Below, one piece after another: positions 3,201-63,610 of a stretch of DNA of 64,000 nt; within the stretch, counting starts at the first letter, position 1; each line of letters opens with the position of its first letter. Position numbers and translations under genes: made by a program. The notes beneath the pieces are model-generated. The model was not told where the DNA came from. It worked only from the letters and a program-made list of their open reading frames with translations, and did not search any database. Origin of the DNA: Gemmatimonadetes bacterium SCN 70-22 (lineage in GTDB: Bacteria > Gemmatimonadota > Gemmatimonadetes > Gemmatimonadales > Gemmatimonadaceae); the NCBI GenBank assembly GCA_001724275.1, contig MEDZ01000008.1:1-64000 (forward strand). The letters are read 5' to 3'.

Positions 3201-3204
3201 TGTC

Positions 3205-7182: not shown

Positions 7183-7357
7183 GCGGCGCGAGCGCGCTCC
7201 AGCCACCGCGCGGCGACGACTGCCGCTCGCGCAAGCGCAACGTCGACCTCGAACCGGCGCGGCGCGGGATGGCGGGGTGACGTCGTCCGGCGCGCGGCCG
7301 CCGGCCGCAGCTGGCGACTGCGCTTCGCTGACGCGCATGGACGTGTGAGGAATCGTC

Positions 7358-38917: not shown

Positions 38918-39166
38918 ATGTCCTGGCCCCGCCTCGTTTTCCAGCTCACGCTCGCCGCCCTGCGCCACCCGCCGCTGGCGGTTGACCTCCTGCGCGTGGC
39001 GTGGCGCTTCCGGGCAGACGGGTGGTACGCGCGCTTTCCCTTCCTCCCCCTCCCGTCGCGGGCGTACGTACGCTGGCGCATGCACACCGCCTACGGCGAC
39101 CCCGACGCCGTCCCACCCGCCGGCGACATCATCCGCTACGCCCGCTGGGTCGGCACGCAGCCATGA
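38918..39166 (+). CDS. conserved small protein upstream of queG
   Basis: An 82-residue protein (MSWPRLVFQLTLAALRHPP) with basic and aromatic residues and the C-terminal AYGDPDAVPPAGDIIRYARW. I do not recognise a named family. Its stop codon overlaps the queG start in an ATGA arrangement, so the two are probably translationally coupled. A linked function is possible but not shown. Confidence 0.6.
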   Translation: MSWPRLVFQLTLAALRHPPLAVDLLRVAWRFRADGWYARFPFLPLPSRAYVRWRMHTAYGDPDAVPPAGDIIRYARWVGTQP

Positions 39167-40326
39167 GCGACCCGGCGCCCGCTCCCGGCGCGGCGACGGC
39201 GCCCGACCTCCCGCTCGAGCGGCGCATCGAGCGACAGGCGTATGCGCTCGGCTTCGACCTCGTCGGGATCGCCAGGCTGGGGGAGGTGGAGACGGCCGGG
39301 TACTACGACGAGTGGGTGGCGCGTGGGTGCGAGGGGGAGATGGGATACATGGCGCGCGACGCGCACTTGCGCCACGATACCCGCCTTCCGCACCCCGGCG
39401 CCGTGAGCGCGATCGTCGTCGGGATGGACTACGGCGGCGGCGAGCCGCCGGGCCCCGTCGCTCGTTATGCACGAGGCGACGACTATCACGACCTGATGAA
39501 GGAGCGGCTGCGCGCCCTCCACGCCTGGCTCGCCACGGCGCTCGGCCGTGAGGTGGATGCGCGCCCCTACGTCGACACCGCTCCCATCCTGGAGCGCGAC
39601 CTGGCGCGGCGCGCGGGGCTCGGGTGGTTCGGGAAGAACACGAACCTCATCAATCCCCAGCGCGGATCGTTCTTCTTCATCGGGTCGCTGTTCGTGGCGC
39701 TCGAGTTGCAGCCGAGCGCGCCGTTCGAGGCCGACCGGTGCGGGAACTGCACGCGGTGCCTCGACGCCTGTCCGACCGATGCCTTCGACGGTCCGCGGCA
39801 GCTCGATGCGCGCAAGTGCATCTCGTACCTCACCATCGAGCACCGGGGGGAGATCCCCGAGGCCTTGCGACCGTTGCTGGGGGAGCTGCTGTACGGGTGC
39901 GACATCTGCCAGGAGGTGTGCCCGTATAACCATAAATTCGCGAAGGAACTATCCGAGCCCGCGTTCGCGGCACGCCCCGCGCTGTCGGGCAAGGACGCGA
40001 GGTCGCTCGCGCGCGAGCTGCTGGCCATGTCGCAACCCGAGTTCTCCGCCGCCTTCAAGGGCTCGCCCATGAAGCGCGCCAAGCTCCGCGGGTTGAAGCG
40101 CAACTCCGCCGTGGTGCTCGGCAACGCCGGGTCTCCAGACGACGTGGCGGCGCTGGCGGCGGCGCTCTCTGACGAGGAACCGCTCGTTCGTGGACACGCC
40201 GCGTGGGCGTTAGGCGCGATCGGCTCCGCCGAGGCGCTCGAGCCACTGCGGGCTCGTGCCTCGGCCGAATCGGACGCCTGGGTACTGGAGGAGCTGAACG
40301 CGGCGGTCTCCCGGCTCGGGGGCTGA
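39163..40326 (+). CDS. queG: epoxyqueuosine reductase QueG, with 3' end supplied by the mobile element
   Basis: A 387-residue QueG. It reduces epoxyqueuosine to queuosine in tRNA using cobalamin and two [4Fe-4S] clusters. The cluster motifs are complete: CGNCTRCLDACPTDAFDG and CDICQEVCPYNHKF, and the C-terminus has HEAT-like repeats (VVLGNAGSPDDVAALAAAL, LVRGHAAWALGAIG). The first 249 codons are host chromosome. From the crossover at 39910/39911 the coding sequence belongs to the integrated element, which carries a homologous 3' end in frame, so the full protein is restored. The host's own 3' end is left as a fragment at 63262-63610. The start at 39163 overlaps the upstream small gene. Confidence 0.93.
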   Translation: MSDPAPAPGAATAPDLPLERRIERQAYALGFDLVGIARLGEVETAGYYDEWVARGCEGEMGYMARDAHLRHDTRLPHPGAVSAIVVGMDYGGGEPPGPVARYARGDDYHDLMKERLRALHAWLATALGREVDARPYVDTAPILERDLARRAGLGWFGKNTNLINPQRGSFFFIGSLFVALELQPSAPFEADRCGNCTRCLDACPTDAFDGPRQLDARKCISYLTIEHRGEIPEALRPLLGELLYGCDICQEVCPYNHKFAKELSEPAFAARPALSGKDARSLARELLAMSQPEFSAAFKGSPMKRAKLRGLKRNSAVVLGNAGSPDDVAALAAALSDEEPLVRGHAAWALGAIGSAEALEPLRARASAESDAWVLEELNAAVSRLGG

Positions 40327-42035
40327 CTGCCTCCGAGCTCGAAGTACGCCGGCGCGTTTGGCGCGGTCCTGAGCGTGACGACCGCCGTCTTGTGGTTCGC
40401 CCGCTTCATTCCGGGCACCGGCTCGACCACGATGAGGACGTCGGCCACCCAGTAGTCGAGCAGGATGGTCCGCTCCTCCGGTCCCGCCGTCTCCCATGCA
40501 TCCGCCAGGTTCCGCGACTCGTGGATGATGCTCGAGAGACGGTCCCACGCGCTCTGGCGCGACTGCGCAAAGCGCTGCGCCTCCGCCAGCTGCGCCTTGC
40601 TGGCGCCGACCTGCTGCTTGGCCGCCTTGAGCCGCTCGACGAGCGCGTCGTCGCCATCGTCGTCGTCGGACGCCACGGCCGCGGCCATGTGGGCGAGACG
40701 CTTGTACGCCGCCTCGCGCTGCGCCAGCTCCTGCTCGGCGCGCGCCACGGCGTCTTCCGCCGACTTGCGGAATTCGTCGCGCTCCAGGATGAGGTCGCGC
40801 GCCGTGGCCTCGTAGTCGGCGTTGCTGCTACGCTGCGCCACGATGAGGTCCTTGATCTTGGTCTCGAGTTCCTCGGCATCCACGTACCACGCCTTGCAGC
40901 CGGCGGCCGAGAAGCGCTCGAACCTCTCGGGGTTCATGCGCTCCTTCGGCTTCGCGTGGACGTAGCCACGCGTTCCGCCCTGCTTCTTCGCGAGGCGGCC
41001 GCCGTTGTACTCGACACCGCAGTGTGCGCACGCTGGCTTCAGCGGAAATAGCTCCTCGTGGCGCCGCTGTCGTTCCCCATCCGCCTTCGAATGTCCACCG
41101 ATTTCCTTCTCCACCTCGCGGAACAGCTCGACGTCAACCATGGGACCCCACTCCGCTCGCTCCCGGCGGCGCATGCGCTTCCCTTCCTTCTCTTCACCCA
41201 GGAACGCGATCTCTCCGACGAGCACAGGATTGCTGAGGTAGTTCCGGACGGAACGATGTCCGAGCTTGCCACCTCGCGCACCGCGCACGCCCTGCTTGTA
41301 TAGCTCGGCGCCGATTCGGTCAAGGGACACACCCGCGAGATACTTCCTCGCCATCGGCTCCCAGTGCTTCAGCACCTCGTGATCGGGGATTAGGATCGTC
41401 CCTCCGCCGCCAGGCGTGGAGCGCTGCCCGTCGGCTAGTTCGCGGTCGGAGAGCGTGTCCCACCGCTTGGTACCCCACGGCGCGCTTCCGCCGACCCACC
41501 ACCCCTTGCTCGCGTGGCCGATTCTGCCGCGCCGCACGCTCTTCGAGAGGTTCGCGGAGTAGAGCGCCGCGGCGTAGGCGTAGAGCGCCATGGTGATCAT
41601 GTCCACCAACTGGTCGTTCGTCCGCTGCACCGTGACGAAGCAAATCCGCCAGTTGTAGCGCTCAAACTCGGAGAACACCGACTGGAAGGCCATGATGTCC
41701 GGTTGGCCGTCCTCGTCTAGCGTGCGTCCGAAGCGGCTCGGGTCATATAGCTCGACCCGTCCAGGATTCGACTTAGGCCGGGGGTTCTGACGGCAGAATT
41801 CGAGAAGGTCTTGGAACTCCGGCCGGTCGAACGAGGTGCCGGAGCAGCTGTCCTTCCACCACCACTCGCGGCTGATCGGCCCCCAGACCTCATCGGCGGC
41901 ATGCGCCTGCTGGTCGTGCGAGGCCACCTGGCGGTCCTCGCTCTCGGTGGACTTGCGCGTGTAGCGCAGGCGGTCGGGAATGATTCCGAACGCGGCAGCC
42001 AAGCGTTCGCGCCAGACGCGGAAGATCTTACTCAT
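39567..42035 (-). CDS. large serine recombinase (integrase)
   Basis: The open frame encodes 822 residues. The N-terminus is a serine-recombinase catalytic domain (RLRYTRKSTESEDR, catalytic serine probably S29). Next come a recombinase domain (RRGRIGHASKGWW, SVRNYLSNPVLVGEIAF), a zinc ribbon starting CAHCGVEYNGG and a long coiled coil (RDEFRKSAEDAVARAEQEL). The recognisable protein ends near residue 569 at about 40329. Beyond this the frame continues without a stop through the antisense of queG, across attL, to 39567 in host DNA. In the excised circle the same frame would instead cross the joined site and stop at 63184, giving 734 residues. The start at 42035 overlaps an upstream small gene by eight bases. 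This enzyme is the best candidate for integrating the element. Confidence 0.88.
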   Translation of the reverse strand: MSKIFRVWRERLAAAFGIIPDRLRYTRKSTESEDRQVASHDQQAHAADEVWGPISREWWWKDSCSGTSFDRPEFQDLLEFCRQNPRPKSNPGRVELYDPSRFGRTLDEDGQPDIMAFQSVFSEFERYNWRICFVTVQRTNDQLVDMITMALYAYAAALYSANLSKSVRRGRIGHASKGWWVGGSAPWGTKRWDTLSDRELADGQRSTPGGGGTILIPDHEVLKHWEPMARKYLAGVSLDRIGAELYKQGVRGARGGKLGHRSVRNYLSNPVLVGEIAFLGEEKEGKRMRRRERAEWGPMVDVELFREVEKEIGGHSKADGERQRRHEELFPLKPACAHCGVEYNGGRLAKKQGGTRGYVHAKPKERMNPERFERFSAAGCKAWYVDAEELETKIKDLIVAQRSSNADYEATARDLILERDEFRKSAEDAVARAEQELAQREAAYKRLAHMAAAVASDDDDGDDALVERLKAAKQQVGASKAQLAEAQRFAQSRQSAWDRLSSIIHESRNLADAWETAGPEERTILLDYWVADVLIVVEPVPGMKRANHKTAVVTLRTAPNAPAYFELGGSQPPSRETAAFSSSSTQASDSAEARARSGSSASAEPIAPNAHAACPRTSGSSSESAAASAATSSGDPALPSTTAELRFNPRSLARFMGEPLKAAENSGCDMASSSRASDLASLPDSAGRAANAGSDSSFANLWLYGHTSWQMSHPYSSSPSNGRKASGISPRCSMVRYEMHLRASSCRGPSKASVGQASRHRVQFPHRSASNGALGCNSSATNSDPMKKNDPRWGLMRFVFFPNHPSPARRARSRSRMGAVST
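39886..39933. other. attL of the serine-integrase element
   Basis: Left junction inside queG. It contains the 17-bp core CCAGGAGGTGTGCCCGT (39909-39925) shared with the right junction, with the putative crossover dinucleotide CA at 39910-39911. To the left is host queG coding for CDIC; to the right is the element arm ATAACCAT (39926-39933), the inverse of the arm at the right end. Confidence 0.85.
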
Positions 42036-42297
42036 TCACGCTCTCCAGGAGCTTGTCGGTGATGATCTCGGCGTAACGGCGCCGACGAACGCGATTGAGG
42101 ACTTCATCGCGCAGACGATTCTCCACAATGGCCGCGCGTTCCGCGAGCACGGTCGGGTTGATGAGCCGGGCGATGCGATCGGGCAGCTCGCGGGAGGCGT
42201 GGGTCGTCACCCCTCCCCGCGTCTTCCCGATGTCGCTCTTGTTCGTCGCCACGGCGTCGCCTGACCTGGTCCGCACCGAGCGAGCCGAAGTGCCCAC
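42028..42297 (-). CDS. small basic protein upstream of the integrase
   Basis: An 89-residue protein from a GTG start at 42297, with a helical, charged C-terminal half (IVENRLRDEVLNRVRRRRYAEI). Its TAA stop overlaps the integrase start by eight bases, a sign of translational coupling. No family is recognised. A role as an accessory to recombination (for example a directionality factor) is only a guess from position and size. Confidence 0.5.
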   Translation of the reverse strand: MGTSARSVRTRSGDAVATNKSDIGKTRGGVTTHASRELPDRIARLINPTVLAERAAIVENRLRDEVLNRVRRRRYAEIITDKLLESVNE

Positions 42298-47636: not shown

Positions 47637-49373
47637 TCACGGCAGTCGCTCCCGAGCAGCCGCATACCTGTACGAGGTCTGCCTGCGAACGGCACCACGG
47701 TCCGACGCTCCGGTGTGAGCGCCCGGGACCATCGAGCTCGCGCACGCGTGGGGCCCTAGGTGCTGACGCTGACGCTGACGGCGACCGAGGACGACCATTT
47801 TGCGGAGCCGGGTCCAGCGGACGCGGCGGCGATGAGCGGCCGACACACCGGGCTCGGAAAAGCCAGGAGCCTGAGCCCCTTGGGCCGAGCGACGACCCGC
47901 GCGCCGCCGGTAGAGGCCGAGCGCGATCCGTGCCTGCCGAGACCTTCCCGAGTTGTTGCCCGCCGTCTGCATCGAGGGGTCCTCATGAGCCTCTATCGGC
48001 GCCTGACCATCCGGATCCGAGCCAGTAGCACCGCGCCCCCGGGGATCCCTCGCCTGCGAGACATCGCAACGCACGTCACGGGCAAAGGGGACAGGGGTCG
48101 GCCGGAATTCCTCCATGTAGACCCGCACCCGTGACCAGAACGCGTCGGAGGGCGCCACCAACTCGGGATGCAGTTCGCGGACGACCGCCGTCGCCACGCC
48201 TTGGAGGCCGCCCTCCACAGCGCCACGTTCCAGTCGGCGTATCGCTCCGGCCCGGGCCTCCAGCTTGTTGTAGATCTTCTTCGGGATGTCGGCGACGTGG
48301 GCCCCAGGGCCCGGGTCTTGTTCGCGTGGTTCCTGCTTGTCTTTCTCGTCGAAGATGCCCAGTACCTTCTGAAGGCGATCGAAGCCGGGGAGCAGTCGCT
48401 GTCTCAGGATCGCCTGCGAGTAATCCTTCCAAAGCTCCCGGTCGCGCTCATCTCCCGCGGCCGCGCTCTCCATGATGTCCCACACCGTCCGGCCGCCTGC
48501 GCCGCCTCCCGCGCGCGCCTCGGCCGACTTCACGAGGTAGTCCCCCGTGCCGGCCGCCACCTCTAGCGAGACTCCGTGAGTTGGCTGTGGCAGGTACCGC
48601 GGCCACTCCGCCGGTTCCAAATCGAGGTCCACGAGCGCGTGCTTGAGGGACCTGACCCACGCCTCGCTGATCGCCGTGGCCGTGCACGCGAGCGACGCAT
48701 CCGTGCCGAACTTGGACTTCGGCGCATCCGGCTGCACCACGAGCAGGACGTGGAGATGAGGGTGCCATCCGGCCCCTCCATGGGTGATGTCCAGCGCACG
48801 CACGGATCCCACGAGACCACCTTTACCGCGGAGGGGCCGCCAATCAGCTCCCCCGTTGAGGAACCGCCACGCGCGCGTGAGGAGCCGGATCAGGAAGTCG
48901 AGGCGATCATCGGCTGAATGGCGGAGCGTCAAGGTCAGCATGAACACGAGGAGACCCCGCGCTCGCGCCGCAGACACAGCGCGGCGCAGCTTCTTCGCCG
49001 CCTTGGCGCGCAGCCGCGGGGTGCACACGGGGCAAGCATGCGGGCTGCGGCAGAACAAGGGGCCTTTCGTCCGGGCCGTCCGGGCCCCCTGCTGGTCCTC
49101 TTCCACCCAGATCTCCGCCACCTTGCCCATCGCCCCCACACGCCCGCACTTGGAGGACGCACGGGTGGTCACCCCGCGCAGGCTCTCCCGCAGCGCAGCA
49201 CGCGCCTCGCTGTTGCTCTGGGTCGCAGCGTCGGTGTTTTCCCGGTGGTTGCAGTTCTCCTGAGTAGAGCCCCCGAGGAAGAGGAGCAGCTGGTCGAGCG
49301 AGCGGTCATCGCTTACCGGGGTGAGACTCAGCGACAGCGGGACGCCCGGGGCCTTGGGGTCAGGGGGGCACAT
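47637..49373 (-). CDS. rolling-circle replication initiator (HUH Rep)
   Basis: A 578-residue protein with the three motifs of a Rep_1-type rolling-circle initiator, in order: motif 1 FMLTLTLRHS (about residues 145-153), motif 2 HPHLHVLLVV with the HUH metal site (204-208), and motif 3 GDYLVKSAEA with the catalytic tyrosine near 279. A zinc ribbon precedes them (LFCRSPHACPVCTPRL), as in Rep proteins of actinobacterial plasmids and AICEs. The frame is open to 49559 from a TTG, and I prefer the ATG at 49373. The C-terminal extension after about residue 460 is basic and of low information, and may be partly unstructured. It would nick the origin and start replication, possibly also transfer. Confidence 0.85.
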   Translation of the reverse strand: MCPPDPKAPGVPLSLSLTPVSDDRSLDQLLLFLGGSTQENCNHRENTDAATQSNSEARAALRESLRGVTTRASSKCGRVGAMGKVAEIWVEEDQQGARTARTKGPLFCRSPHACPVCTPRLRAKAAKKLRRAVSAARARGLLVFMLTLTLRHSADDRLDFLIRLLTRAWRFLNGGADWRPLRGKGGLVGSVRALDITHGGAGWHPHLHVLLVVQPDAPKSKFGTDASLACTATAISEAWVRSLKHALVDLDLEPAEWPRYLPQPTHGVSLEVAAGTGDYLVKSAEARAGGGAGGRTVWDIMESAAAGDERDRELWKDYSQAILRQRLLPGFDRLQKVLGIFDEKDKQEPREQDPGPGAHVADIPKKIYNKLEARAGAIRRLERGAVEGGLQGVATAVVRELHPELVAPSDAFWSRVRVYMEEFRPTPVPFARDVRCDVSQARDPRGRGATGSDPDGQAPIEAHEDPSMQTAGNNSGRSRQARIALGLYRRRAGRRSAQGAQAPGFSEPGVSAAHRRRVRWTRLRKMVVLGRRQRQRQHLGPHACASSMVPGAHTGASDRGAVRRQTSYRYAAARERLP

Positions 49374-49707
49374 ATTGGAGTACGGCAGAGGGGGAAGCTC
49401 GCCGCCATCGGGGCGAGCACCGCGTGATGCACGTCGGCCCAATGCAGGCTGGCAGTCCTCGACTGCCCGCGGCAAGGCCACTGCGACGGCAATGCGGGAC
49501 ACGAACCCGGTTCCACGCGGGGCGGGCCTCCCACGCTTGTCGTCGGTGTCCCTGCACAACTATCCTGTCGACACGGAGGGTCGCCGCGGCGAACCTCGCC
49601 CGCGCGGTGCGACAAGACATCGGAGCTGACGCGCAGCGTCCGCACCCCGCGTTGATCCGGGAACCGGAGCGGGGCACGTATGCTGTGGCCCCACCTCGGA
49701 GCGGTTC
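49374..49707. other. divergent intergenic region of rep and serine recombinase
   Basis: About 330 bases. The first half keeps the rep frame open to 49559. The second half holds a TATGCT -10-like box at 49679-49684 and a Shine-Dalgarno-like CGGAGCGG before the recombinase ATG. Rolling-circle origins often lie close to rep, but I do not see a clear hairpin origin here. Confidence 0.4.
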
Positions 49708-50553
49708 ATGGCCCGGCGTACCGTCACTCGTCGCAGGAAAGGCGCGCCGACCACCACGGCGGTCGCCGAGGCCCGCGCCGGGATCTACATTCGCGTCTCC
49801 ACGTCGGAACAAGCGCTCGAAGGCGTGTCACTGGCTGCTCAGCTTGCGCGGGCAGAAGCGTACGCCCGCGCCGCGGGGCTGGAGGTCAGCGCGGTTTACC
49901 GGGACGAGGGAGTGAGCGGCGGAACGCCACTGTCGCTGCGTCCTGAAGGCGCTCGCCTGCTCGAGGCGATCCATCGCGGTGAGCACGCCCATGTCGTAGC
50001 GCTCAAGCTGGACCGCTGCTTCCGCGACGCCGTGGACTGCATGCGCACCGTGGAAACCTGGACCCGTAGCGGCGTGGCACTCCATCTAGTTGACCTTGGA
50101 GGCCAGACCCTGGAGACCCGAAGCGCCATGGGCAGGTTCTTCCTCGCCGTCATGGCCGCCTGCGCCGAGCTGGAACTGGGGAACGTGCGCGAACGCACCC
50201 GTCTCGCTCTCGCCCACAAGCGTGCACGCGGCGATCGACTCGGCGCGACGCCGATCGGGTTTCGGACCGCGAGTCCGGGCGCCCCGATGACGCCGAATGA
50301 GGCGGAGCTCCCAACCGTGCGACGCCTACTCGATCTGTGCTCGAACGACCTGCCCTTCACGCATGTCGCTCGCATCCTCACGATGGAAGGACATCGCGCG
50401 AAGCGCGGCGGGCAGTGGCATTCCGCTGCCGTACGCCGTGTGTGGCTGGCCCGGGAGCGTTACGCGGCGCTCCTGGCGCCCGACGTCGACATGGTGGGCA
50501 AGACGATCCAAAAGTCCGGACACGGCCAGCGCCAACGGCCTCCGGGCCTCTGA
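49708..50553 (+). CDS. small serine recombinase (resolvase/invertase type)
   Basis: A 281-residue protein. The catalytic domain begins GIYIRVSTSEQALEGVSLAAQ, with the nucleophile serine at residue 31, and continues with YRDEGVSGGTPLS and LKLDRCFRDAVDC. A long dimerisation helix includes FFLAVMAACAELELGNVRERT. The C-terminal recombinase-type DNA-binding region has ATPIGFRTASPGAPMTPNE and AVRRVWLARERYA. The Shine-Dalgarno-like CGGAGCGG lies three bases before the ATG. This is the second serine recombinase in the element; it may resolve multimers or act at another site. No TnpB-like gene is adjacent, so it is not an IS607-type transposase. Confidence 0.85.
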   Translation: MARRTVTRRRKGAPTTTAVAEARAGIYIRVSTSEQALEGVSLAAQLARAEAYARAAGLEVSAVYRDEGVSGGTPLSLRPEGARLLEAIHRGEHAHVVALKLDRCFRDAVDCMRTVETWTRSGVALHLVDLGGQTLETRSAMGRFFLAVMAACAELELGNVRERTRLALAHKRARGDRLGATPIGFRTASPGAPMTPNEAELPTVRRLLDLCSNDLPFTHVARILTMEGHRAKRGGQWHSAAVRRVWLARERYAALLAPDVDMVGKTIQKSGHGQRQRPPGL

Positions 50554-50640: not shown

Positions 50641-51591
50641 CTATCCTACAACGTCGTTCTCACTGCCTCGTTGGTTGCAGGCGTAGCACATCGAATAGCG
50701 ATCCAGGTGGCGCGCCTCTTGGCATTCCTTGCACAAGACCCACGTCCCGCCAGTCCTACAAGCGTTGCACTGTTGCTCGTCCAAGGGGTGCCACGCGTCG
50801 CGACACTCGACGCAGAGACGCACGCCGAGCTTGTCCCAGTTGAACGCGCAGGTCTTGCAGAACGTGGCGGTGCCATCGCCTGACATATACAGGGCGAACT
50901 CCTCGACGGCGCGCTTCACCGCGAGGCGATACAGCCAGTCATTCGTTGCCTGGTAGATCGGCTCGTACACCCTGGCGAACGCTTGCCGAAGAGCGAATTG
51001 CCCGCTTTCGACTCGGAGCGGCTGAACAAGGACCGGGTTGTCGAACTCGAACTGACACTGCCGGTGGTTGCGTGGAGATGCGCAGAAGTAGCGTGGCCTC
51101 CCGGCGCTGCGCCCGGTGCCCTTACGCTCCCGAAGATTCCAGCCGCCACACCTCGGACAGCCGGGGCGGAGATCCCCGTCCGGGCCGAGACGATCGCTAT
51201 ACTCGGGTTCAGCCGTGTGCTCACTGGCGAACTCTTCGTACAGCATTCGTCGGTGTTCGGCGCGAAGCTCCCGCAGCAAATCCTGCACTGACGCAGGTTG
51301 CCAGAGATGCTGGAGCGTGAACGGCGCCTCGGAAGTGCCGCACTGCTCGCACGTGGCCTGGATTCGCGATCGACGCAACGCGATCCACTCGGGAGTGTGC
51401 CAGTGGCGACCGCCGCGTATTGCGGCGAGTAAGCGTGCGTGCACGACTCGAGGCTCAACGGCGGACTGCTCCAAAGCCGCAACCAAGCCATCACACTCGG
51501 CTGCGGTAAGCGGCAGGACCCGCGCTTCCTGTTCCTCGGACTGTTCGCTTGAGATGGCGGGCTCGCGCACCGCCGGATCGTCAGACCTCAC
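50641..51591 (-). CDS. multi-zinc-ribbon protein of the type III R-M operon
   Basis: A 316-residue protein whose start overlaps the mod stop by 11 bases, so it is probably expressed with the R-M genes. It has about seven CXXC pairs: TCEQCGTS (C81/C84), GCPRCGGWN (C145/C148), CKTCAFN, LCVECRDAWH, QCNACRTGG, LCKECQEARH and MCYACNQRG. The first pair is followed by TLQHLWQP, which recalls an HNH-like or restriction-associated fold, but no complete catalytic motif is seen. No named family is recognised. It is an unusual third component for a type III operon. Confidence 0.65.
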   Translation of the reverse strand: MRSDDPAVREPAISSEQSEEQEARVLPLTAAECDGLVAALEQSAVEPRVVHARLLAAIRGGRHWHTPEWIALRRSRIQATCEQCGTSEAPFTLQHLWQPASVQDLLRELRAEHRRMLYEEFASEHTAEPEYSDRLGPDGDLRPGCPRCGGWNLRERKGTGRSAGRPRYFCASPRNHRQCQFEFDNPVLVQPLRVESGQFALRQAFARVYEPIYQATNDWLYRLAVKRAVEEFALYMSGDGTATFCKTCAFNWDKLGVRLCVECRDAWHPLDEQQCNACRTGGTWVLCKECQEARHLDRYSMCYACNQRGSENDVVG

Positions 51592-53728
51592 AGGTAAAGA
51601 GAACTTCCTCCCCCAGCATGTCTATGACCTTCACCGCGACGGTCGTCTTGCCCGCGGGGGCGGGGAGCTCGTACCGGCCCTCTACCAGGTCCACCTTGCC
51701 CTCGGGAACGTCGGTGAGCGCAACGTTGAACACCTGACCGTCGAATGCGGGGTCGATCATCACGCCGTCGACCATCGCGCGCCAGTCCTCGATGCGCGGC
51801 GCCAGCACACCCGCCTGCTGCTGCAGGCGCTGCACGATCGAGGGGGAGACAAAGTCCACCACCTCGACCTCGATCCGGCCGCCGCGCCGGCGCACACGGA
51901 TCTTCGCTTTCGCAGGCTCGTGTTTGAGGAACCCGCCGTACTTCGGGTCTGTGCGAAGCTCGATCACGCGGATCTTGTTCACGGCGTCGGCGCCGCGGCG
52001 TAGCGCGTTCCATTCGTCGACCCATGCCCGAGCGCCGAGCTCCATGCCAAGGCAGACCATTGTGACCGGGCGGTCCTCCTGCGGACGCGCGTCGAGCTCT
52101 CGCCGCAATTCCTCTAGGTCGAGCGGCGTGAGCGGCCGACCGAAGGGAACGATCTTGACCAGCGAGGTGCCGAGTATGCCATCGAAGTACCCATCGGTGC
52201 GCGAGCGCAGCAGACCCAGGTAGTCGGCGGCGAGGTTGACGGCCTCGTTGTGCTGCACCTGTAGGTCATAGTCGTTGACGCGCCAGGTAGAGAACGAGAG
52301 CTGCGCCGGGGCAGGGCGATCGCCATCCAGCCCGAGGCCCGCCTGGGTGGACGCTTGCTCTTCGATCACATCCTGCAGCCGCCTGGCCGTGGTCTGGATC
52401 GCACCCTTGTTGATGTCGCATCCGATCCAACGGCGCCCGAGCTTCTGCGCGACGGCCGCGGCGGTGCCTGAACCGATGAAGCAGTCCAAGACGATGTCGC
52501 CTGGGTTAGAGGATGCGAGGACGACACGCTCGATGAGCGCTTCGGGCTTCTGCGTCGGGTAGTCCTCGCGCTCTGATCCGACCATGTTGATGGGATCGAC
52601 GTCATCCCAGAAGTCGGTGCAGGCACGGCCTTGCGTTTCGGCCTCGTATCGCTTGAGTCGCGGCCATGCGCCTTCGCGCGCGGGCCAGTAGATCTTCCCC
52701 TCGGCGTCGAGGCGGTCCAGCGCCGTGGGGACCTTGGCCCAGTGTCGCCCGAGCGCGGACGGATTGAACCCGCGCCATGCCTCGCCGGAAGGGCCCCGGC
52801 GCAGCCCCGGCGCCGTCAGCTCGCCAAGAGCATACGTGCCCTGTTCATCTCGATGGCGGTAGTGGCGGGTGCGATGCGTCTCCGTCATCTCCTGGTATTG
52901 CTGATTCCACCGGCCCTGCTTGGGATCGAGCGAGTAGAAAAGCAGATAGTCCGTGACCGCACCAAACTGGTGGGCACCAGCGTGAGCGGTCGTTCGCTTC
53001 CAGGAAACCTGGTTTCTGAACGCATCGGGCCCGAACACCTCGTCGAGGAGGAAACGCAGGTGGTGCACCTTGCGCGCGTCGATGTGCACATAGATCGACC
53101 CGTTCCCTGCGAGCAACTCACGCAGGAGCAACAGCCGCTCGTACATGAACTGCAGGTAGTTGTCGTTCGCCCAGATGTCGGTGTATTGGATCTGCTCCCC
53201 GAGAGTGTAGCCTTCGCCATTGAGCCGTGCGGTGCCCGTGGCCCCTCTGAGTGACACCTTCCGCACGTAGTCGGCACCCGAGTCGAACGGGGGGTCGATG
53301 TAGATGAGGTTTACCTTCCCGCGGAAGCCGCTCGCCAGGAGATGCGCGAGGACCTCCTTGTTATCACCGTGGAAGAGAAGGCCTCCGTGAGGGTAGGCTG
53401 CAGGCCAGTCCGCCGACGCGGCAAGGGCTGCGGCGCCGGTGGGCTCGAACGCCTCGACCTGCTGCGCCGGGAATGCCTTCAGGTGCCGGAGCGGGCGCTT
53501 GCCGACCCATGTGAGCATTGGTCGGCCCTTCGCCGCGGTGATCTTCACCTCGACTGGTGACGGCACCGTAGGAGCGTTCGGCGCCGATGATGCTGCCGCG
53601 CCCTCGGTCGCCGACGTCGTGCTCTTCGCCTGCCGCTTGGGCGTTGTCGCATTCGTTCTCGCTCCGCTCTTGGCGGTGGCAGCCTTCTTGGGCGCACCCG
53701 CGCCCCGTCCGTTCGCCCTCTTACTCAC
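51581..53728 (-). CDS. mod: type III DNA methyltransferase (Mod)
   Basis: A 715-residue DNA methyltransferase of the beta group: motif IV LIYIDPPFDSGADYVRK (DPPF at 145-148) comes before motif I VLDCFIGSGTAAAV (D415 to G421), with QKPEALIERVV in between. These residues bind S-adenosylmethionine and place the target adenine. The N-terminal 60 residues are an Ala/Lys/Thr-rich flexible tail. The C-terminal part is the recognition and Res-binding region. It overlaps the res gene by eight bases and the downstream zinc-protein gene by 11 bases. The order res before mod is the reverse of the classical EcoP1/EcoP15 order. Recognition sequence unknown. Confidence 0.92.
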   Translation of the reverse strand: MSKRANGRGAGAPKKAATAKSGARTNATTPKRQAKSTTSATEGAAASSAPNAPTVPSPVEVKITAAKGRPMLTWVGKRPLRHLKAFPAQQVEAFEPTGAAALAASADWPAAYPHGGLLFHGDNKEVLAHLLASGFRGKVNLIYIDPPFDSGADYVRKVSLRGATGTARLNGEGYTLGEQIQYTDIWANDNYLQFMYERLLLLRELLAGNGSIYVHIDARKVHHLRFLLDEVFGPDAFRNQVSWKRTTAHAGAHQFGAVTDYLLFYSLDPKQGRWNQQYQEMTETHRTRHYRHRDEQGTYALGELTAPGLRRGPSGEAWRGFNPSALGRHWAKVPTALDRLDAEGKIYWPAREGAWPRLKRYEAETQGRACTDFWDDVDPINMVGSEREDYPTQKPEALIERVVLASSNPGDIVLDCFIGSGTAAAVAQKLGRRWIGCDINKGAIQTTARRLQDVIEEQASTQAGLGLDGDRPAPAQLSFSTWRVNDYDLQVQHNEAVNLAADYLGLLRSRTDGYFDGILGTSLVKIVPFGRPLTPLDLEELRRELDARPQEDRPVTMVCLGMELGARAWVDEWNALRRGADAVNKIRVIELRTDPKYGGFLKHEPAKAKIRVRRRGGRIEVEVVDFVSPSIVQRLQQQAGVLAPRIEDWRAMVDGVMIDPAFDGQVFNVALTDVPEGKVDLVEGRYELPAPAGKTTVAVKVIDMLGEEVLFTCEV

Positions 53729-56387
53729 GTCCGTCCTCTGCGAACCGAGCGATGCCCGCGACCTCGTCGGTCGGGATCACGCCGTTCCTGTCGAAGATGA
53801 TCTCGTAGCGGAGCCGCTCCGGGTTGAGCTGCTCCCAGCGCTTTACGGCGAGCGCCTTCCTCCCCTCGGGGCTCTTCGCATCACCGACCTCCATCTCGTG
53901 CTCCACCGTCGCCTGGAACTGGCTGCTCTTCACCTCGACGATGAGCACGCGACCTGACCCGGGCTTCGCCCCCTGGTCCGGCTTCTTCCGTATCACAAAG
54001 TCCGGCGTGTAGCGGCGCCATTTCCCCTTGTCGTCCTTGTACTCGACGTAGAAGTCTGTCTTGGCAGGGTCGGTCAGCGCTCCGGTGAAGAACACGTCCT
54101 CCACCTCATCGTGACCGACTTTCAGCTCGCGCAGGAGCTGCTCGAAGAAGTTGAGTTCCGTGTTCGAGTCGAAATCGTACGGGCTGTAGTGGAAGCCAAG
54201 ATCGCGCGGATTGCGGTCCTGCATGGCTTCCCAGGAGAGCAGCAGATGCTCGCGCTCCTTCGGGTAGACGATCTCCGCGGTGTAGACGTCGGCCCCGCTC
54301 GCGTCTCGCTCGAGTTGGAACCCCTCGGGACGCACGAGCGCAAGCGCGACGTCAACCTTCTCCTCCGTGACGGCGTACGCTCCCTGCCACGCCTCGATCT
54401 GGCGGCCCAATACCTCCAGGTGAGCATCGGGGATGTCGTCAGCCGCATAGAGGCGCCTGACCTCGTCATAGACGGTCCACGTGTCGAGCCGGTACCGTCC
54501 CGCCAATGCCACCGCGGCGCCGTAGGCGTCGAGTCCCTCCGGAGGCGTCTCGATGGTCACTGTCTCGCCCAGCTGATGCAGGACAGTGAAGCTGGACTCC
54601 TGGTCCGCGATCGTGAGCTCTGCCCGGAGCAGCTTCGCCCCGGCGGCCGATTTGGGCCGCTGCAGGACCAGCGGCCCACGGTCCATCTCCGGCGCGCGCT
54701 CGATCCGGCGCAGCGTCTGTGTCACAACGAGGGGCGGCAGATCGAGCTTCCGTAGGACGATGCGCGCCCGCCGCGTCTCGCGTGCCGTGTGGTCCAGGTC
54801 CTGGAGCGACTCCCCGAAGGTCTCCTGGAGCTGCCTGTCGAGGATCGCGCGGTTGTCGTTCGACAGGTAGATGCGCGCGGGCTTCCCGTTCCCCGGGACC
54901 TGGCGCAGGCAGCGGGTCGCCGCCTGCAGGACGAAATTGTTCGAGGTGCGGAGCTTCCGAGCGAGCGCGCAGGCGAACAGACTCGGGCAGTTCCACCCCT
55001 CGGTCCCCTTGTTGACCAGCAGGATCACCCGATGCGGGGCCGACGGGTCGTTGAGCCGGTTGAACGCATCGACCTCCGCGGCCGATGCGTCCGAAGTGTT
55101 CTCCAGTGCGAGCGCCACCGGGATTCCGGCCGCTACCATCGCCTCGTCCACCACGGGCCGAAGCTCCTGCAGGTCATCCTTCTGGGGGAAGTAGATCGCC
55201 AGCTTCGCGGGCGCGCCGTTGGGCAGGGTGGTGTCGCCGTACTCTCGGAAGAAGTCGGTGACGACCTCGCGCACGTACGCGCTGGCGTCTCCATCGAACT
55301 CATAGGAGAGGATGTTGCCGGCGACGTCCTTGAGGATGCCGTCGCGAATCCCCTCGGCAAGCCCGTACCAGATCACCACGTCGCGCAGCGGCTGACGTTC
55401 GAAGTACGGCGTTCCGGTTGTGTTGACCACGGCGTAGACGTTGGTCTGCGCGGCCAGGTAGTCGACCGTCTTGCGGACCTTCTTGAGCTCCGCGTCGAGC
55501 GATTGGCCATAGGTGTGGTGCGCCTCGTCGGAGAAGATGGCGAGGTGGGGGAGACTAGCAATCGCCTGCAGGCGCAGGTTCGCGACCTCGGCGCGCGCCT
55601 CATCCTCGCGCCCCGGGGCGAAAAGACTCCCGATGTCGCTCTTCCGGACCGTCTCCTTCTGAATCCGGATCTTCTCGGTGTTGGTGACGATGACGTTGAA
55701 GAGCGACTTCCGGATGACAGGAAGGTCTTTCTCCCCGTCGCGGGTGAAAGTCAGCTTGATCGTCGCCGCGAAGGGGCTGTACATCCGCGGCGGCAGGACG
55801 CGCTCGTACGGGATCTCGACCAGCTCGCGCAGCGACTCGATGATCGTTTTGCCGGGGGCGAACACCAGCGCGTTCTGGACGAACGGGCCGTCGGGGTACT
55901 CCATCGCCATGGCGAACTCCGTGGCGACGATGGTCCCGATGAGGATCGTTTTGCCGGCCCCCATGGCGAGCGCCAGGATGTAGCTGGGGTAGCCGAGCGT
56001 GAGCGTCTCGCGAACCGACTCGAGCTTGAAATCGCGGACGAACTGATCGTCGATCCGGATGCGATCCCAGAGCGCCGGCATGCCCTCGTCCTCAACCAGA
56101 TCCCGGATCTCACTCGCGGTCAGCCCGAGGGCTGCACGCAACTCGGAGCTCTTGGTGTAGAGCCGCTGGTACAGCTCGAACACGTGCGGCGTCTTCTCGA
56201 TCAGGCGGAGGTACCAGTAAGTCTCGAGGGCCCGGAGCTGCGGGGTCCGAAGGAACCTGAGCTGGCCGGTGCCGGGTTCGCGGGCCCAGTCAAAGAGCTC
56301 TCCGATGGCGGGGTAGTCAGCGCACGGGTAGCCGGCTTGGCGCCATGCGGCGACTGCGCTGGCCAGCTTCTCGTGAAGGTGCGGCAT
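53721..56387 (-). CDS. res: type III restriction enzyme (Res)
   Basis: An 888-residue SF2 helicase-nuclease. Helicase motif I is AMGAGKTILIGTIVA (K146) and motif II is FSDEAHHTYGQ (DEAH at 287-290), with AATRCLRQVPGNG in the later motif region. At the C-terminus is a PD-(D/E)xK nuclease: YTPDFVIRKK (D796) and LIVEVKSSQ (E818, K820). The protein translocates or slides along DNA and cuts unmethylated sites when bound to Mod. The arrangement of domains and the adjoining mod gene make the assignment secure. The start at 56387 is an ATG near the beginning of the alignable N-terminal region. Confidence 0.92.
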   Translation of the reverse strand: MPHLHEKLASAVAAWRQAGYPCADYPAIGELFDWAREPGTGQLRFLRTPQLRALETYWYLRLIEKTPHVFELYQRLYTKSSELRAALGLTASEIRDLVEDEGMPALWDRIRIDDQFVRDFKLESVRETLTLGYPSYILALAMGAGKTILIGTIVATEFAMAMEYPDGPFVQNALVFAPGKTIIESLRELVEIPYERVLPPRMYSPFAATIKLTFTRDGEKDLPVIRKSLFNVIVTNTEKIRIQKETVRKSDIGSLFAPGREDEARAEVANLRLQAIASLPHLAIFSDEAHHTYGQSLDAELKKVRKTVDYLAAQTNVYAVVNTTGTPYFERQPLRDVVIWYGLAEGIRDGILKDVAGNILSYEFDGDASAYVREVVTDFFREYGDTTLPNGAPAKLAIYFPQKDDLQELRPVVDEAMVAAGIPVALALENTSDASAAEVDAFNRLNDPSAPHRVILLVNKGTEGWNCPSLFACALARKLRTSNNFVLQAATRCLRQVPGNGKPARIYLSNDNRAILDRQLQETFGESLQDLDHTARETRRARIVLRKLDLPPLVVTQTLRRIERAPEMDRGPLVLQRPKSAAGAKLLRAELTIADQESSFTVLHQLGETVTIETPPEGLDAYGAAVALAGRYRLDTWTVYDEVRRLYAADDIPDAHLEVLGRQIEAWQGAYAVTEEKVDVALALVRPEGFQLERDASGADVYTAEIVYPKEREHLLLSWEAMQDRNPRDLGFHYSPYDFDSNTELNFFEQLLRELKVGHDEVEDVFFTGALTDPAKTDFYVEYKDDKGKWRRYTPDFVIRKKPDQGAKPGSGRVLIVEVKSSQFQATVEHEMEVGDAKSPEGRKALAVKRWEQLNPERLRYEIIFDRNGVIPTDEVAGIARFAEDGRE

Positions 56388-56699
56388 GCAGGGGGGACTG
56401 GAGAGAGGTCAGCCTGACCGGACTGGGTACGCGGAGGATAGTCTACTACGGGGCGAGGAAACGCCAGACCAAATCTGCAACCGGTGGCCACTCAACGAGA
56501 TGCAATGCGCCGCCCGGCCTTCCCAAAGCAAGCCACTAGGTGATATGGTCGGCACCGGAGGCACGTTTGCGGGACGCACGGCCACCCGGCCCCCGTCCGA
56601 GCCTCCCCCACGCGCGAGCCTCGCCGGCAAGCGCCCCGTCGCGATCGTCGACGTCAGGGTGCCTCCCCATCGCCAGACACACTGCCCATTCTTTTCACC
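56388..56699. other. divergent intergenic region of res and STAND gene
   Basis: About 310 bases, less GC-rich than the flanking genes in places (for example around 56440 and 56470). It should hold promoters for both defence operons. I saw no hairpin or operator worth reporting. Confidence 0.4.
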
Positions 56700-59600
56700 A
56701 TGAGTCTGCGTCGGGGCAACCTCCAGCCGGCACACCGTGGGTACTGGTACCAGGACATCGCGACCGCGTACATGCTCGTCCGCGCGATGGTCGAGCGCTA
56801 CGATGCGGTGATCGTCGACCGGAAGGTCGTGGACGACGATCGCCTCGACGACCTGGAGGTGCGCGCCGCGGGCCGGCGCGTCCGACGACAGTTCAAGTCG
56901 AGCCAGGACGCGGCGCGGCCGCTGAGCGCGCAGGACTTCACGGCGACCGCCTCAAGCCTCCGCATCGACCGGCTGGTGCGCACGCACACTCGGGCCGGCG
57001 ATTCGCCGGCCGACGAGTACCGGCTGTGCGCCACGTGGGCGCCGCCCGACGCGGGCGATCCGCTCGCGGCGCTGCTCGAACCGATTACGGCCCCGCCTAC
57101 GCTAGTCGGCTGGCCCATCCGCTGCTTCCGGCTCAAGGCCGAGCTGATCTGGCCAACAGGAGCGAGCCCGATCTGGGCGCCGCTCACCCCGCCCACAGCC
57201 TCGGGTACCGCAGCGAGCGCCGATGCGGGCACCGCCGGTGGCGCGGCGCCGGTCGCGCCGATCACCCGCGCCGAACTGCTCGACTTCTGCCAGCGATTCA
57301 TCATCGAACTGGCCCTCCCCGTCGCGTCGACGGAACTAACCGCGCCGGGCCCGTTCGAGCGCGCACTCGTCGAAGAGCTCGCCGAACGGGTAGGCATCGG
57401 TCGCTACCCAAACCACGGCCGCGCGCCCTCGGACGTTGCGGCGCTCGCCATCGCGCTCGCCACGATTGCTCGCACGCAGGAAGGGTCGCTTACGCCGAGC
57501 GACGTCGAGCGGGAGCTGGAGATCCGTGTGGACTTCGGCCGCGTGGCGCAGGCGTTCCCCCTCGACGCCGCGCTGTTCCACGACCGGCCGACGTTCCGGC
57601 AGGCCCTACGAACCACGGCGCTCGCCGGCGGCCACCAGCTCGTCATCGCACCCCCGGGCGCCGGGAAGTCGTGGGAACTGACCCGGCTCGCCGAGGAGCT
57701 GACTGCGGCCGGCGCCATCGTCGCACGGCACTACTGCTACCTCGAGCCCGGAGACGCGCTCGTCGAGCGGCGGGTGACCACAGACGTGTTCTTCGGCAAC
57801 CTGCTCGGGGAGTTGCTCGACGCCGACCCGTCGCTCCATGGCGCCGGCGGCGCCCGATATGCCGCGGGCCTCGGCGAGCTCGAGGCGACTCTGGCGCGCG
57901 CGGCGGCGACCGGGCGCCCGGTGGTGCTGATCGTCGACGGTATCGATCACATCGCGCGCGTGCGAAGCGACACCCGTCGTCTCGGGGACGCCGAGACCGA
58001 CATCGTCGAGCGCCTGGCGACGGCGCAAGTGCCGCCGGGCGTGGCGCTCGTGATCGGCTCGCAGCCCGGGCGTCACCTCGAGCCGCTCCGCGAGCGGTGG
58101 GGCACTGCGCTGCTCGAGCGGACGGTGCCGCCGTGGCTGCCGGCCGACTTGGCGGCGCTGGCAGACCGCCAAGGACTGACGCGCGCCCTCTCCGCGGTCG
58201 GCGTCACGTCGGCCGGCGACATGGCGCGTGTCCGCAGCGCCCTCGCCGAGCGGGCCGACGGGCTCCCCCTGTACGCGCACTACCTCGCACGCGGGCTGGT
58301 GGCGGGCCTGCAGGACGGCACCATCGCGTCCCCGGACGAGTGGCTCGACGCAGCGCCCGCGACCGGCGGCGACGTGGCCGTCTACTACGCGCACCTTTAC
58401 CGCAGCGCGAGCGCGCAGGCGCAGGTCATCGCCGATCTGCTCGGCGTCATCGATTTCTCCGTCACCGAATCCGAGCTCCGCGAGATGGTGCCGGCCTTCG
58501 TCGGGGCTTGGCTACCGCCGGCGCTCGCACAGCTCGCGTCGATCCTGACGGTGGCGACCGGCCAGGGCGGCTTCCGCATCTTCCATGAGAGCTTCCGCCG
58601 TTTCATGACGCAGGAGCTCGCGCGGCAGGGCCGGTCCCCAGCCGACGCGCTCCGCCCGGTGATCGACTGGCTCACCGCGCGTGGGTTCTATGCCGACGCG
58701 AAAGCGTACCGCTTCCTCCTGCCGGCGCTCCGCCGCGCCGACCGGGGCGCCGAGATCCTGGTGCGCGTCGACGCGGCATTCGTCTCCGACAGCGTCGCCC
58801 AGGCGCATGCGGCCGACGCCGTCCAGCGGAACCTCGCCCTCGCCGCCGACGTGGCGGCCGAGCGCCGCGACTGGCCGGCGCTCGTGCGCTGCGTCGAGCT
58901 GCACCGCGCCGCGTACACCTGCTTCGACGAGTCCCAGAACGACTGGCGCGACTACTGGGCCACCTACCTGACGCTCTTCGGCCCCACCGCCCTGGCCGAG
59001 CGCCTCCTGTTCGACGGCCGACCCACGCAGTCCGCGTCCGACGGGCTCTACGCCTGCGCGCTCGTCGACGACGCGGGCGGGATCGCACCGTGGCAGGAAT
59101 ACCTCGCGCTGTACGACGCGGGCGCGCGCGGGAACGCAAACCCGTCTGGCTTGTCGGACTCCGAGGGGAGCCTCACCTCGACGGAGGCCATTGACCTCGC
59201 CGCGGTGCACGGGCGCATCCGGCTCGGCGAGTGGCGTGGGGTCGCCCGGCGGCTGCTCACCTACCTCGCGGAGGTCGGCGACCGCTTCAAGCCGCTCTTC
59301 GTCCGGCAACTGGCGGCCCGCATGGCGCGGATGCTGGGCCCGGAGCTGGTCGAGCGGATGGCACAACGCGCAGATCCGACTCGCCCCGGCGGCCCGCGCC
59401 TGAGCCGGCGGGCCGCGGCTGTGCTCCGCCTTGGCCTCGCGGACGAACTCGCGCGCGCCGGCGACGACGCGGCAGCGCGCGCGGCGGCCGGCCGCGCGTT
59501 CCCAGACGCGGACACCCCAGCGCTGGCGGCGGCGTGTGTGGCGTACAGCGCCGGCGAGCCGGACCCCGGCCAGCCCCCCGTGTGGTCACCCCACCCTGGC

Positions 59601-62600
59601 GCGGCGGTCGATCCGGCTGCGCTCCCGATCGCCGTCGGCCCCGACGTCCACCTGCACGACGCGGCCGGCGTCCGCGCTTGGGTCGCCGCCGTCCGTCTCG
59701 CCGCCGCCGACCCTGCGGGCGGGCCGGCGACCCTCGAGGCAGAGTGGCGGCGCGTCACAGGGGTCGGCTGGTATCGCTGCTGGCTCCGCTTCGTCTTGGG
59801 TCTCTCGCGGGCGGAGGCCGCGCGTTACGCCGGGCAGGCCGCCGACGTCAGCGGCGCCTTCGCAGAGCTCACACGTGACGTCCACCCCTTCCGCGGGCAG
59901 CCTCGGGCGTGCGACCTCTGGGCCATCCGCTTGGTCATCCAGGAGAGCATCGCGCGGGGGCTTCGGCTCCTGTGCACGGACGCCGAGTGGCGAGACGCTC
60001 TGACAGCGCTGGCCCTCGCCGCCGGTGAGACGTCCACGCGCATGGACCGGGAGGATGGTGGGCCGCTCTCCACGGGCACCGTGCTCGAGGTGCTGCTTCC
60101 GCACGCGGCAGATCCCGTCGGGGGTGCCCACGTGCGGGCGACAATCGAGCGCCTGGTGGCAGCCCTCGAGGCGAACGGCACCTACTACCCGACCCATGCG
60201 GAGTACGCGATGCGCTTGGCGCGCGCGCGGCACGCGGCGGGCGATGTGGCCGGCGCGCGCGAGGCGTGGGCGCGCGGCGCGGTGTACCTCGGCGCGTACG
60301 GATGGCGGAAGGACGTGACCATCTACGACATCATCGAAGGCGCATCCGCCCTTCTCGCGCACTCGCCCGAGCGCGCGCTCCGCGCCCTCGCGGACACGCA
60401 GCCGCTCGTACACGCCGTCGTCGCGCACACTGACGGCCGCTCGACCAACCACGCGCCCAATACGTGGCTCCGCGGCGTGCTGGCGGCGCGGATACCGGCG
60501 GGCCTCGCGGTCCTCGCCCGCACACTCGTGGAGGAGGACGACCCGAGCGGCTGGGTCAACGCACTGGCGGTGCAACACGCCGCCGCGGCCGCCAGAGGGG
60601 CGGGAGACCCCGGGCTCGTGGACGCCGTGCTCGCGACGCTGCGTTTCGAGGCGGACGACCACGACGCGCTCGAGCGCATCGACGCCCGCTTGGCACCGGT
60701 CCTCGGCCTGCTCCATACGGATCGTCCGCGAGCGGTTCGGGCGCTCCGGCGAGTGGCCGCCGAGGTGACGGGGGACGGGCGGCGCGACGCCACCACTGCG
60801 GCGGCCCGCGTCGTTGCCGTCGCGGAAGAACACGGGCTCTCCGTCCCGCGCATCGCGCGCGACAGCGCGGCCGCCGGCATGTCCGCTGCGTCGGGGCCCC
60901 CTAGCGGACTCTCCTCGCCCACGGGGCACGGGTCGAGGCGCTTTCGACCGGACGAGGTAGACCGCGCGCTGGGCCTCCGCGAGCCGCCGTTCGTCCCGAA
61001 CCCCACCCTGGTCGACCTGCTCGCGGGACTCCGACGGGCGGCGGCCTCACGTCGCTGGGACGAGCCCGGGGGTGCGGAGCACGTGGCGCTCTCCCTCGGC
61101 TATCGACTCGGGCAGCTCGTCGACGACGGACGGGAGGACGACGTCGGGCGGCTACTCCGCTTCTTCGCCCGGGACGCAGGGGCTTGGGGGTCGAGCCAGG
61201 TGCATCCGCTCGGGACGCTGGCGGATGCCTTGGATGCAGGCGGCTATCCGGGGCCGGCGGCGATCGCATACGCCCTCGCCTTCACGGCTACGCGCGGTGG
61301 CAACGGGTGGCACCGCCTCGGCGATACGACCCACGGCTATCTGATCGACCGCGCCATCACGCTCGACCCGGATCTGGCGCGTCAGGTCATCGCGGACGAG
61401 GTGGCGTACGCCCTCCGCGAGAGCACGTACAGCAGCGGGATCACGCGGCACCTCGTGGAGCGCCTCGCTGCGTGGGGTGAACCCGAGACGGCGGAGGCGG
61501 CGTGGCGCGAGGCGTTAGCGGTCATTCGGCACCGGCTCCCGCTCGTCCCGGCGCAGGGGTGGTTCGCGCCGCTACGAGACGAGCGGGAGCCCGATTGGCC
61601 GGATGACGGCTGGTCCGTCGACGAGGCGCTGATGGCGGTGCTGCTCGCCCGCCTCGGGGACCCGCGGCTCGCGCAGAAGGTGCAGGCGCTCACCGGCGTC
61701 GTCGATGCGATCGCGCGCCGCCCCGACGCGGTCGCCGCGCCGATGCGCTGGTGGCTCGGACGGAACACGCCGGTAACCGCCGTGCTGCTCGCGTTGGAGG
61801 CGCTCGTCCGCGCTGAGCCGGCGCCGTTTCCGATCACCACCGCCCTCGACGAGGTCTTGCGCGGCTACGCCGCCTGCGACCTGTGGGGCGCGCGACGTCT
61901 CGCGGCCGCGCTGCTCGAGCGGGCGGGTCGGCCTGCGGCAGCCGAGCCGAGTTCCGGCGGCGCCGCAACCGGGACGACGGGGCTGCCGGCGATCGACGCG
62001 GCACGGCACCGAGCTCTCAGGACACTCGATACCGGGCGGGTGTTGGACGACCTGGAGTCGCTCTGGCCAGCGCTGCCAGACCGCGTCGTGCGACGCCTGC
62101 ATGCCTTGCTGACCGAGGGCGACCACCGCGAGCGGGCGCATGCGCGCTACCGGCTCGCCGAGGGGCGCGACGGCGATGCGCACCCGCGCACGCCCATCGT
62201 GCCGTGGGAGGTGGAACTCTTTCAGGTGGCGCTCCACGAGGCGTCGTGCGGCCTGTCCGCACACCTGTGGAGCACCGGGCAGTGGGCACTCGGGCTTGAG
62301 GACGCCGTGGTGCGGCGTGCACTGCCCGACGTGCGTCTGCACCTAGGCTTGGCCGCGAGCCGGGCGCCGCGACCGCCTTGGCCCGCCGCCGAGACCGTAA
62401 CCGAGGGCGTCTCGCTTCCTCTGGTGCTGGGCGACGATGACCCGTATTACGCCGGCTGGACGCGCTTGGCGTACTTGGAGAGGCGATACCTGCCGGACCC
62501 CAATGCCCCGTACGGGCGGCCGACCGAGGAGATCACAGTGCTCGCGGGGGTCGTAGCGGTCCCGCTCGGCCGGGCGGTGCCGCCCGGCGCCGTGCCATTC

Positions 62601-63023: not shown

Positions 63024-63240
63024 CATGCGCCGGTCCTACGGCCATCTGGTGCCCGTCGACGGCGAATCGGCTCGTGTAGCGAAGCTGCCGGCCGCGCTCC
63101 GCCCATGGGAATGTTCCCGGACCGAGGGGCCTGTGCGCGTGAAACGAAGCGACGACAACTCACGGCAAATGAAGGCGCCTCCACTACTTGCGCCTGTGCT
63201 TGGCGAGTGTCCGCGCTCCCGTCCCGAGGCGGATTCGGAA
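63024..63240. other. right end of the element, no gene recognised
   Basis: About 215 bases between the STAND gene stop and attR. In the excised circle the minus strand at 63261-63184 would encode the last residues of the integrase, ending at a TAG at 63184-63186. Confidence 0.55.
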
Positions 63241-63290
63241 ATGGTTATACCGGCACACCTCCCAGGAGGTGTGCCCGTGGAACGTGCGGT
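63241..63290. other. attR of the serine-integrase element
   Basis: Right junction. The element arm ATGGTTATAC and the following bases (63241-63261) lead into the 17-bp core (63262-63278), with the putative CA crossover at 63263-63264. Host queG sequence coding for WNVRFSREL continues on the right. The left arm is the inverted copy of the arm at attL. Confidence 0.85.
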
Positions 63291-63610
63291 TCTCACGGGA
63301 GCTGGCGGAGGATTCGCCGTTCAAGCCGCGTGACGTTCTGCGGGGTCGCGATGCGAGAACGCTCGCGCGCGAGCTGCTCGCGATGTCGCAGGAGGAGTTC
63401 TCCGCCGCGTTCCGCAAGTCGCCGATGAAGCGGGCGAAGCTGCGGGGGCTCAAGCGCAATGCGGCAGCGGTGCTCGGCAACGTTGGCAGTGGCGATGATG
63501 TCGATGTGCTCACACGTGCGCTCGATGACGAGGAGCCGCTCGTGCGCGAGCACGCCGCATGGGCGATCTCGCAGATCGCTAGGCGGATCTCGAGTTCAGC
63601 AGCTGGATGA
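63262..63610 (+). pseudogene. queG: displaced 3' fragment of host queG
   Basis: The frame encodes QEVCPWNVRFSREL, then LARELLAMSQEEFSAAFRK and VLGNVGSGDDVDVLTRALD, matching the C-terminal part of QueG. It lacks the first 250 codons and any start of its own. It differs from the element-borne tail at 39926-40326 at many positions, so it is not a recent copy. The final HEAT-like repeat seen in the left copy is missing; the frame ends at 63610 in overlap with the convergent flavoprotein gene. Not expected to be functional. Confidence 0.88.

Follow-up and report, generated by a model that had tools for sequence, protein, structure and literature searches.

A large serine recombinase gene at queG in Gemmatimonadota that probably reads through its own attachment site

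We analysed a 64,000-nucleotide stretch (hereafter the window) of contig MEDZ01000008.1 from Gemmatimonadetes bacterium SCN 70-22 (GCA_001724275.1), in which a 23.35-kb integrative element lies inside the host gene queG. The frame of its integrase, a large serine recombinase, stays open beyond the folded domains, and we consider it probable that this gene reads through its own attachment site, attP, and that a conserved C-terminal tail encoded beyond attP is lost on integration, as a switch between the free and the inserted state. Two comparisons among related elements carry this reading: stop codons in the linker between fold and attP prove to be selected against, and the tail with its stop shows the substitution pattern of protein-level selection in the integrase frame only. 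One-way integration by serine integrases is a live question and the basis of their use in genome engineering; here the answer is apparently wired into the gene, the free and integrated forms of the enzyme differing in a conserved tail of 25 residues.

The element, queG and the integrase frame

The element is bounded by 17-bp direct repeats, CCAGGAGGTGTGCCCGT, at 39909-39925 (attL core) and 63262-63278 (attR core). Across attL, the host 5' part of queG, the gene for epoxyqueuosine reductase (39163-39909, plus strand), continues in an open frame into a replacement 3' end that the element carries (39910-40326, plus strand; HEAT_2, 3.8e-12), restoring a QueG of 387 amino acids with Pfam matches to QueG_DUF1730 (6.9e-16) and Fer4_16 (4.2e-23) over 39163-40326. 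The displaced 3' end was left behind at 63263-63610 (plus strand), and rejoining the two flanks in silico yields an open queG of 364 codons. Gene-regenerating islands as described in the Islander work (PMC4383910) likewise split their target, restore it with sequence of their own and leave the displaced fragment in place; here, however, it is queG that is split, and on its other strand the fragment that restores it codes for the integrase linker. We found no report of queG as an integration target in the searchable literature, which covered few subscription papers.

An alignment of all junctions places the exchange point at the first two bases (CA) of the conserved Gln codon in the QueG motif CxxC-Q-[ED]-V-C-P. 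This is the dinucleotide on which all sites align, and in the window the inferred crossover falls at 39910-39911 in attL and at 63263-63264 in attR; in the group of genome G269 the central dinucleotide is AA, again the same at both ends. The reconstructed attP is a palindrome about CA, its arms matching at 21 of 22 bp. Its right half-site (63241-63262) forms one 22-bp arm, while its left half-site (39912-39933) is at once attP arm, queG sense codons and integrase antisense codons. Integrase-linked carried copies of queG mostly encode VCPYN or VCPF at this position, whereas displaced and uninvaded copies mostly encode VCPWN, a difference plausibly explained by the double duty of the left arm as QueG coding sequence.

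Judged by its domains and its AlphaFold model, the integrase is a large serine recombinase. An N-terminal Resolvase domain (PF00239, 6.2e-08) is followed by a Recombinase domain (PF07508, 2.9e-08), both above the Pfam cut-off; residues C336, C339, C380 and H360 of the Zn-binding C-terminal region are invariant in the alignment; and the model contains the coiled coil of this class, with long helices at residues 406-455 and 462-508 between beta elements. The attachment sites are short, with a central dinucleotide and inverted attP half-sites. In a profile search the closest solved structures were those of SPbeta YokA (9dxh/9dxd, 9e-07), and the domain order is also that of YokA and other large serine recombinases.

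The folded part of the integrase (residues 1-568; 40332-42035, minus strand), delimited by Pfam, the profile match and AlphaFold, adjoins the restored queG and is convergent with it. AlphaFold predicts order up to about residue 567, and its confidence score, pLDDT, collapses from residue 569 on, to below 50. The fold thus ends near residue 568, where about 6 bp separate it from the stop codon of queG, and the integrase frame has no stop at this point. In large serine recombinases attP usually lies outside the integrase open reading frame (ORF), and a stop codon follows the fold; here attP lies inside the frame and that stop is absent. The frame continues instead as a linker of about 140 codons (39912-40331, minus strand), antisense to the carried queG 3' end and predicted to be disordered (pLDDT 25-57).

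The initial annotation of the window had described a frame without a stop after its last recognisable residues and two products of it, and all of this was borne out. In the integrated state the frame runs from 42035 to 39567 on the minus strand, through the queG antisense and attL, and encodes 822 residues. When the element ends are joined at the 17-bp repeat, the same frame crosses attP and encodes 734 residues ending in LAKHRRK, with a TAG at 63184-63186; the tail that exists only in this circular state (WEVCRYNHFRIRLGTGARTLAKHRRK-stop; 63184-63264, minus strand) is conserved among the 31 element right ends described below. Integration therefore exchanges the 3' coding end of the integrase gene, since attP lies within its frame. 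The further claim, that recombination switches the C-terminus, stands as regards the frames and their conservation in about 15 related elements, but its emphasis has to move, as it is the circular form that has the selected C-terminus.

The product of the integrated state is 88 residues longer than that of the circular state in this window. In 12 intact insertions into queG an integrase lies alongside. Past the crossover its frame, now in host queG antisense, stops at the crossover codon in three of them and after six codons in seven; it runs on for long in two, this window (114 codons; 39567-39909, minus strand) and genome G218 (129 codons). The frames past the crossover in G325, G377 and G404 were also checked. 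The long run-on of the window exists because one Leu codon ends in G before a Tyr codon. Its 822-residue form is atypical and the long run-on incidental, the general effect of integration being removal of the tail; a host-encoded extension as a functional part of the protein was rejected, because its length in the integrated state ranges from 0 to 129 codons.

Selection on the linker and the tail

For the linker, the QueG protein was held fixed, synonymous codons were resampled with the usage of each genome, and stops in the antisense integrase frame were counted, in elements picked by their integrase core and not by the openness of the frame. All 14 integrase-linked queG 3' ends, from elements whose integrases share roughly 30-60% identity, are open where 6.4 were expected, with no stop against 9.6 expected (nominal joint P 9e-6); conservation of the readthrough frame in homologous elements, proposed as a check in the initial annotation, is thus seen throughout this set. 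In the control, 43 queG 3' ends without an integrase, 22 copies were open (22.25 expected) and 31 stops were counted (28.9 expected), a match that shows the null model to be calibrated. A Fisher test of linked against unlinked copies of at least 100 codons gave p = 0.0005.

These counts bear on an alternative in which GC-rich coding of queG on the opposite strand leaves the frame open as a by-product, so that the integrase merely lacks a stop and its extension is meaningless. Antisense stops are indeed few because in this phase the two strands share their wobble positions, and about half of the integrase-free copies are open too. Yet openness by chance from GC bias was rejected by the resampling test with its 43-copy control, since the linked copies are open without exception while the unlinked copies match expectation; the alternative also leaves unexplained the protein-like evolution and the fixed stop in the right end, where queG is absent, and we regard it as very unlikely. 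The overlap is also a rare case of selected antisense coding, in which one sequence acts as a DNA site and codes for a sense protein and an antisense protein.

For the tail, 31 right ends of elements in about 18 genomes were compared; most of these ends come from integrated, partly decayed units, and all were translated in the integrase frame starting at the crossover. Their consensus is WE[MV]CRY[NT]RFEIPLxTGxRTLRKTxG-stop, and more diverged families keep the same tail, for example WEDCPLPRFVIPLETGRRTLRKERR-stop in G406. Over codons 10-20, which lie outside the palindrome, the ratio of nonsynonymous to synonymous polymorphism (pN/pS) is 0.25 (sequence bootstrap 0.18-0.34), or 0.26 with one sequence per genome; the same codons give 0.99 and 2.6 in the other two frames of that strand, and the ratio is 0.91-1.0 past the tail stop. 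Before codon 20, 1 of 31 right ends has an in-frame stop in the integrase frame; the corresponding counts for the other two frames are 14 and 17. In 15 of the 31 the tail stop sits at codon 26, spelled TAG, TGA or TAA.

It could be argued that the right end is conserved as DNA, namely as a recombinase-binding arm of attP, and that the tail reading is coincidental, the more so as the first seven or eight tail codons lie inside the near-perfect 22-bp palindrome arm. Conservation, however, extends about 35 bp past the palindrome, with a low pN/pS in one frame only and a stop that is conserved despite its varying spelling. Purely DNA-level conservation was accordingly rejected beyond codon 9, where substitution is frame-specific and protein-like, and as an account of the tail it seems to us highly improbable. 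From the protein-like tail and the conserved stop in the right ends it follows that the real stop of the integrase lies beyond attP.

A proposed switch at the integrase C-terminus

We propose that the full protein would comprise the serine-recombinase fold of about 568 amino acids, the disordered linker of about 140 and the conserved tail of about 25, ending at a stop beyond attP, and that the circular element would make this full-length, tailed integrase. With crossover at the central CA, within the first tail codon, some 25 terminal codons pass to the opposite end of the element. The gene left by integration runs out in antisense of the host queG, mostly 0-6 codons on, and encodes a clipped integrase that keeps its catalytic fold. 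The tail may promote integration, or it may support the integrase of the free state in its activity or stability. Its loss would leave a less or differently active enzyme, so that the element stays where it is until a directionality factor or full-length integrase becomes available. Selection can reach the tail only during the circular phase, for which reason the tail most likely aids integration or the level of enzyme in the free state; likely, too, the free form is where it is of use, and the integrated state becomes more stable without it. The long form is presumably translated, and the switch at the C-terminus may control integration versus excision. The part played by the tail in attP x attB and in attL x attR recombination can be tested directly.

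Several observations weigh against the proposed switch. The relatives share ancestry and are not statistically independent, and the P values given above are nominal. Neither the integrase nor a free attP turned up when viral contigs, phages and plasmids were scanned, and the element was not seen as a free circle. The tail is frameshifted or decayed in several elements, including the first one of G134, as would be expected after integration, which is no proof of the model. Finally, the messenger RNA of the long form would carry the attP palindrome as a hairpin, about -40 kcal/mol for the segment that was folded, which could hinder translation of that form.

Two other readings accept the tail but assign it a different role. 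It might be a degradation or inhibitory signal that limits the integrase in the free state, so that clipping stabilises the enzyme, as in the repressor of mycobacteriophage BPs. The conserved tails do not resemble ssrA tags at the extreme C-terminus: conservation peaks internally (F-x-I-P-L-x-T-G-x-R-T-L), and the end is variable and polar or basic, and we consider this role unlikely. Slightly less doubtful, though still improbable in our view, is that the clipped, integrated form is competent for excision and the tail blocks it, the switch setting direction without or alongside a separate factor. A study of artificial fusions of integrases to recombination directionality factors concerns directionality set by the fusion partner of a serine integrase (PMC5737554), and the prophage form of the Mx8 integrase is still active, with altered specificity (PMC6070905). 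Against this, nothing in the sequences favours excision by the clipped form, and a separate factor has a candidate of its own, a conserved ORF of 89 amino acids that overlaps the integrase start (42028-42297, minus strand) and is kept upstream of the integrases of relatives (tblastn matches at L002, L003 and L004, E 1e-4 to 3e-9); it may encode an accessory or directionality factor.

The Mx8 integrase is of the tyrosine class. In this Myxococcus phage attP lies within int, and integration gives int a new 3' end with changed enzyme properties, a case tested by experiment and with the same gene arrangement in Mx9 (PMC6070905). In the element described here, by contrast, the enzyme is a large serine recombinase whose C-terminus is encoded antisense to a host metabolic gene that the element regenerates, and the part lost is short and conserved, a tail that follows a disordered linker. 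The suicidal integrases of archaea (SSV, pTN3, pT26-2) also hold attP in the integrase gene, which integration splits, and self-disrupting recombinases have been described in review as exclusive to archaea (PMC8371274), a claim that Mx8 and the present elements put in question. Those archaeal enzymes are tyrosine recombinases whose catalytic domain is severed, whereas here a serine recombinase keeps its catalytic and DNA-binding domains intact after integration and loses only the tail. In the integration-dependent immunity of BPs, attP lies inside the ORF of the repressor gp33, and integration truncates its C-terminus and switches the state of the protein (PMC4557955); there it is a repressor that is switched, not an integrase, and in the viral form the tail is a degron resembling ssrA. 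The principle of attP within an integrase gene is therefore known, but neither a serine integrase with attP in its own gene nor one antisense to a regenerated host gene was found in the searchable literature, few subscription papers being covered. We are evenly divided on the wider proposition that these elements form a serine integrase family with a state sensor in its own frame, in which recombination rewrites the enzyme and sets its direction, and a single DNA stretch is attP, host gene 3' end and antisense integrase C-terminus.

Relatives, tandem units and cargo

Integrases of 29-60% identity occur in about 17 of 395 genomes of the phylum, and nearly all close relatives among them border on queG in the same arrangement, without a stop at the queG end. 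Many genomes have several queG 3' remnants in an array, and a similar right end of an element stands before each one; in several genomes 3-8 such remnants stand in tandem, which suggests that queG is a hotspot with stacked or trans-mobilised units. In the window itself the element is followed by a smaller second unit of 5.4 kb (63263-64000 and on to 68676; G000:C8, L048), which has the same right-end tail, here WEMCRYTRFEIPLATGARTVRKATD-stop, and in which no integrase is detectable.

An attP-like junction in G073 (L059 / L011, near 13657) was considered as a free copy and rejected, as it joins a right end to the left end of the next unit in a tandem array and its integrase is degenerate; within this joint the downstream integrase frame regains a tail. 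A scan of genome contigs with the integrase as a single protein gave no match, and an alignment scan gave three contigs from metagenome-assembled genomes, all of them from elements already in the set.

Two relatives lie elsewhere. Near 10513 of L069 (G268:C193), a related element stands outside queG, where the queG 3' end that it carries restores nothing, an apparent integration at a secondary site. A distant relative of the integrase is found at maeB, the gene for malic enzyme, with a duplicated 5' part of maeB (L014, L130; G079:C2:4353001-4373000, about 2750-7200), and its frame likewise crosses the junction into maeB antisense.

Among the other genes of the element, a rolling-circle Rep protein (47637-49559, minus strand; Pfam Rep_1, 1.7e-12) makes a circular state plausible, probably a replicating one. 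At 49708-50553 (plus strand) lies the gene of a second serine recombinase, a small resolvase (Pfam Resolvase, 3e-32). The region 51581-63023 holds defence-like cargo, an N6/N4 methyltransferase and a ResIII helicase resembling a type III restriction system, together with an AAA protein of 2107 amino acids with a weak match to Avs1b.
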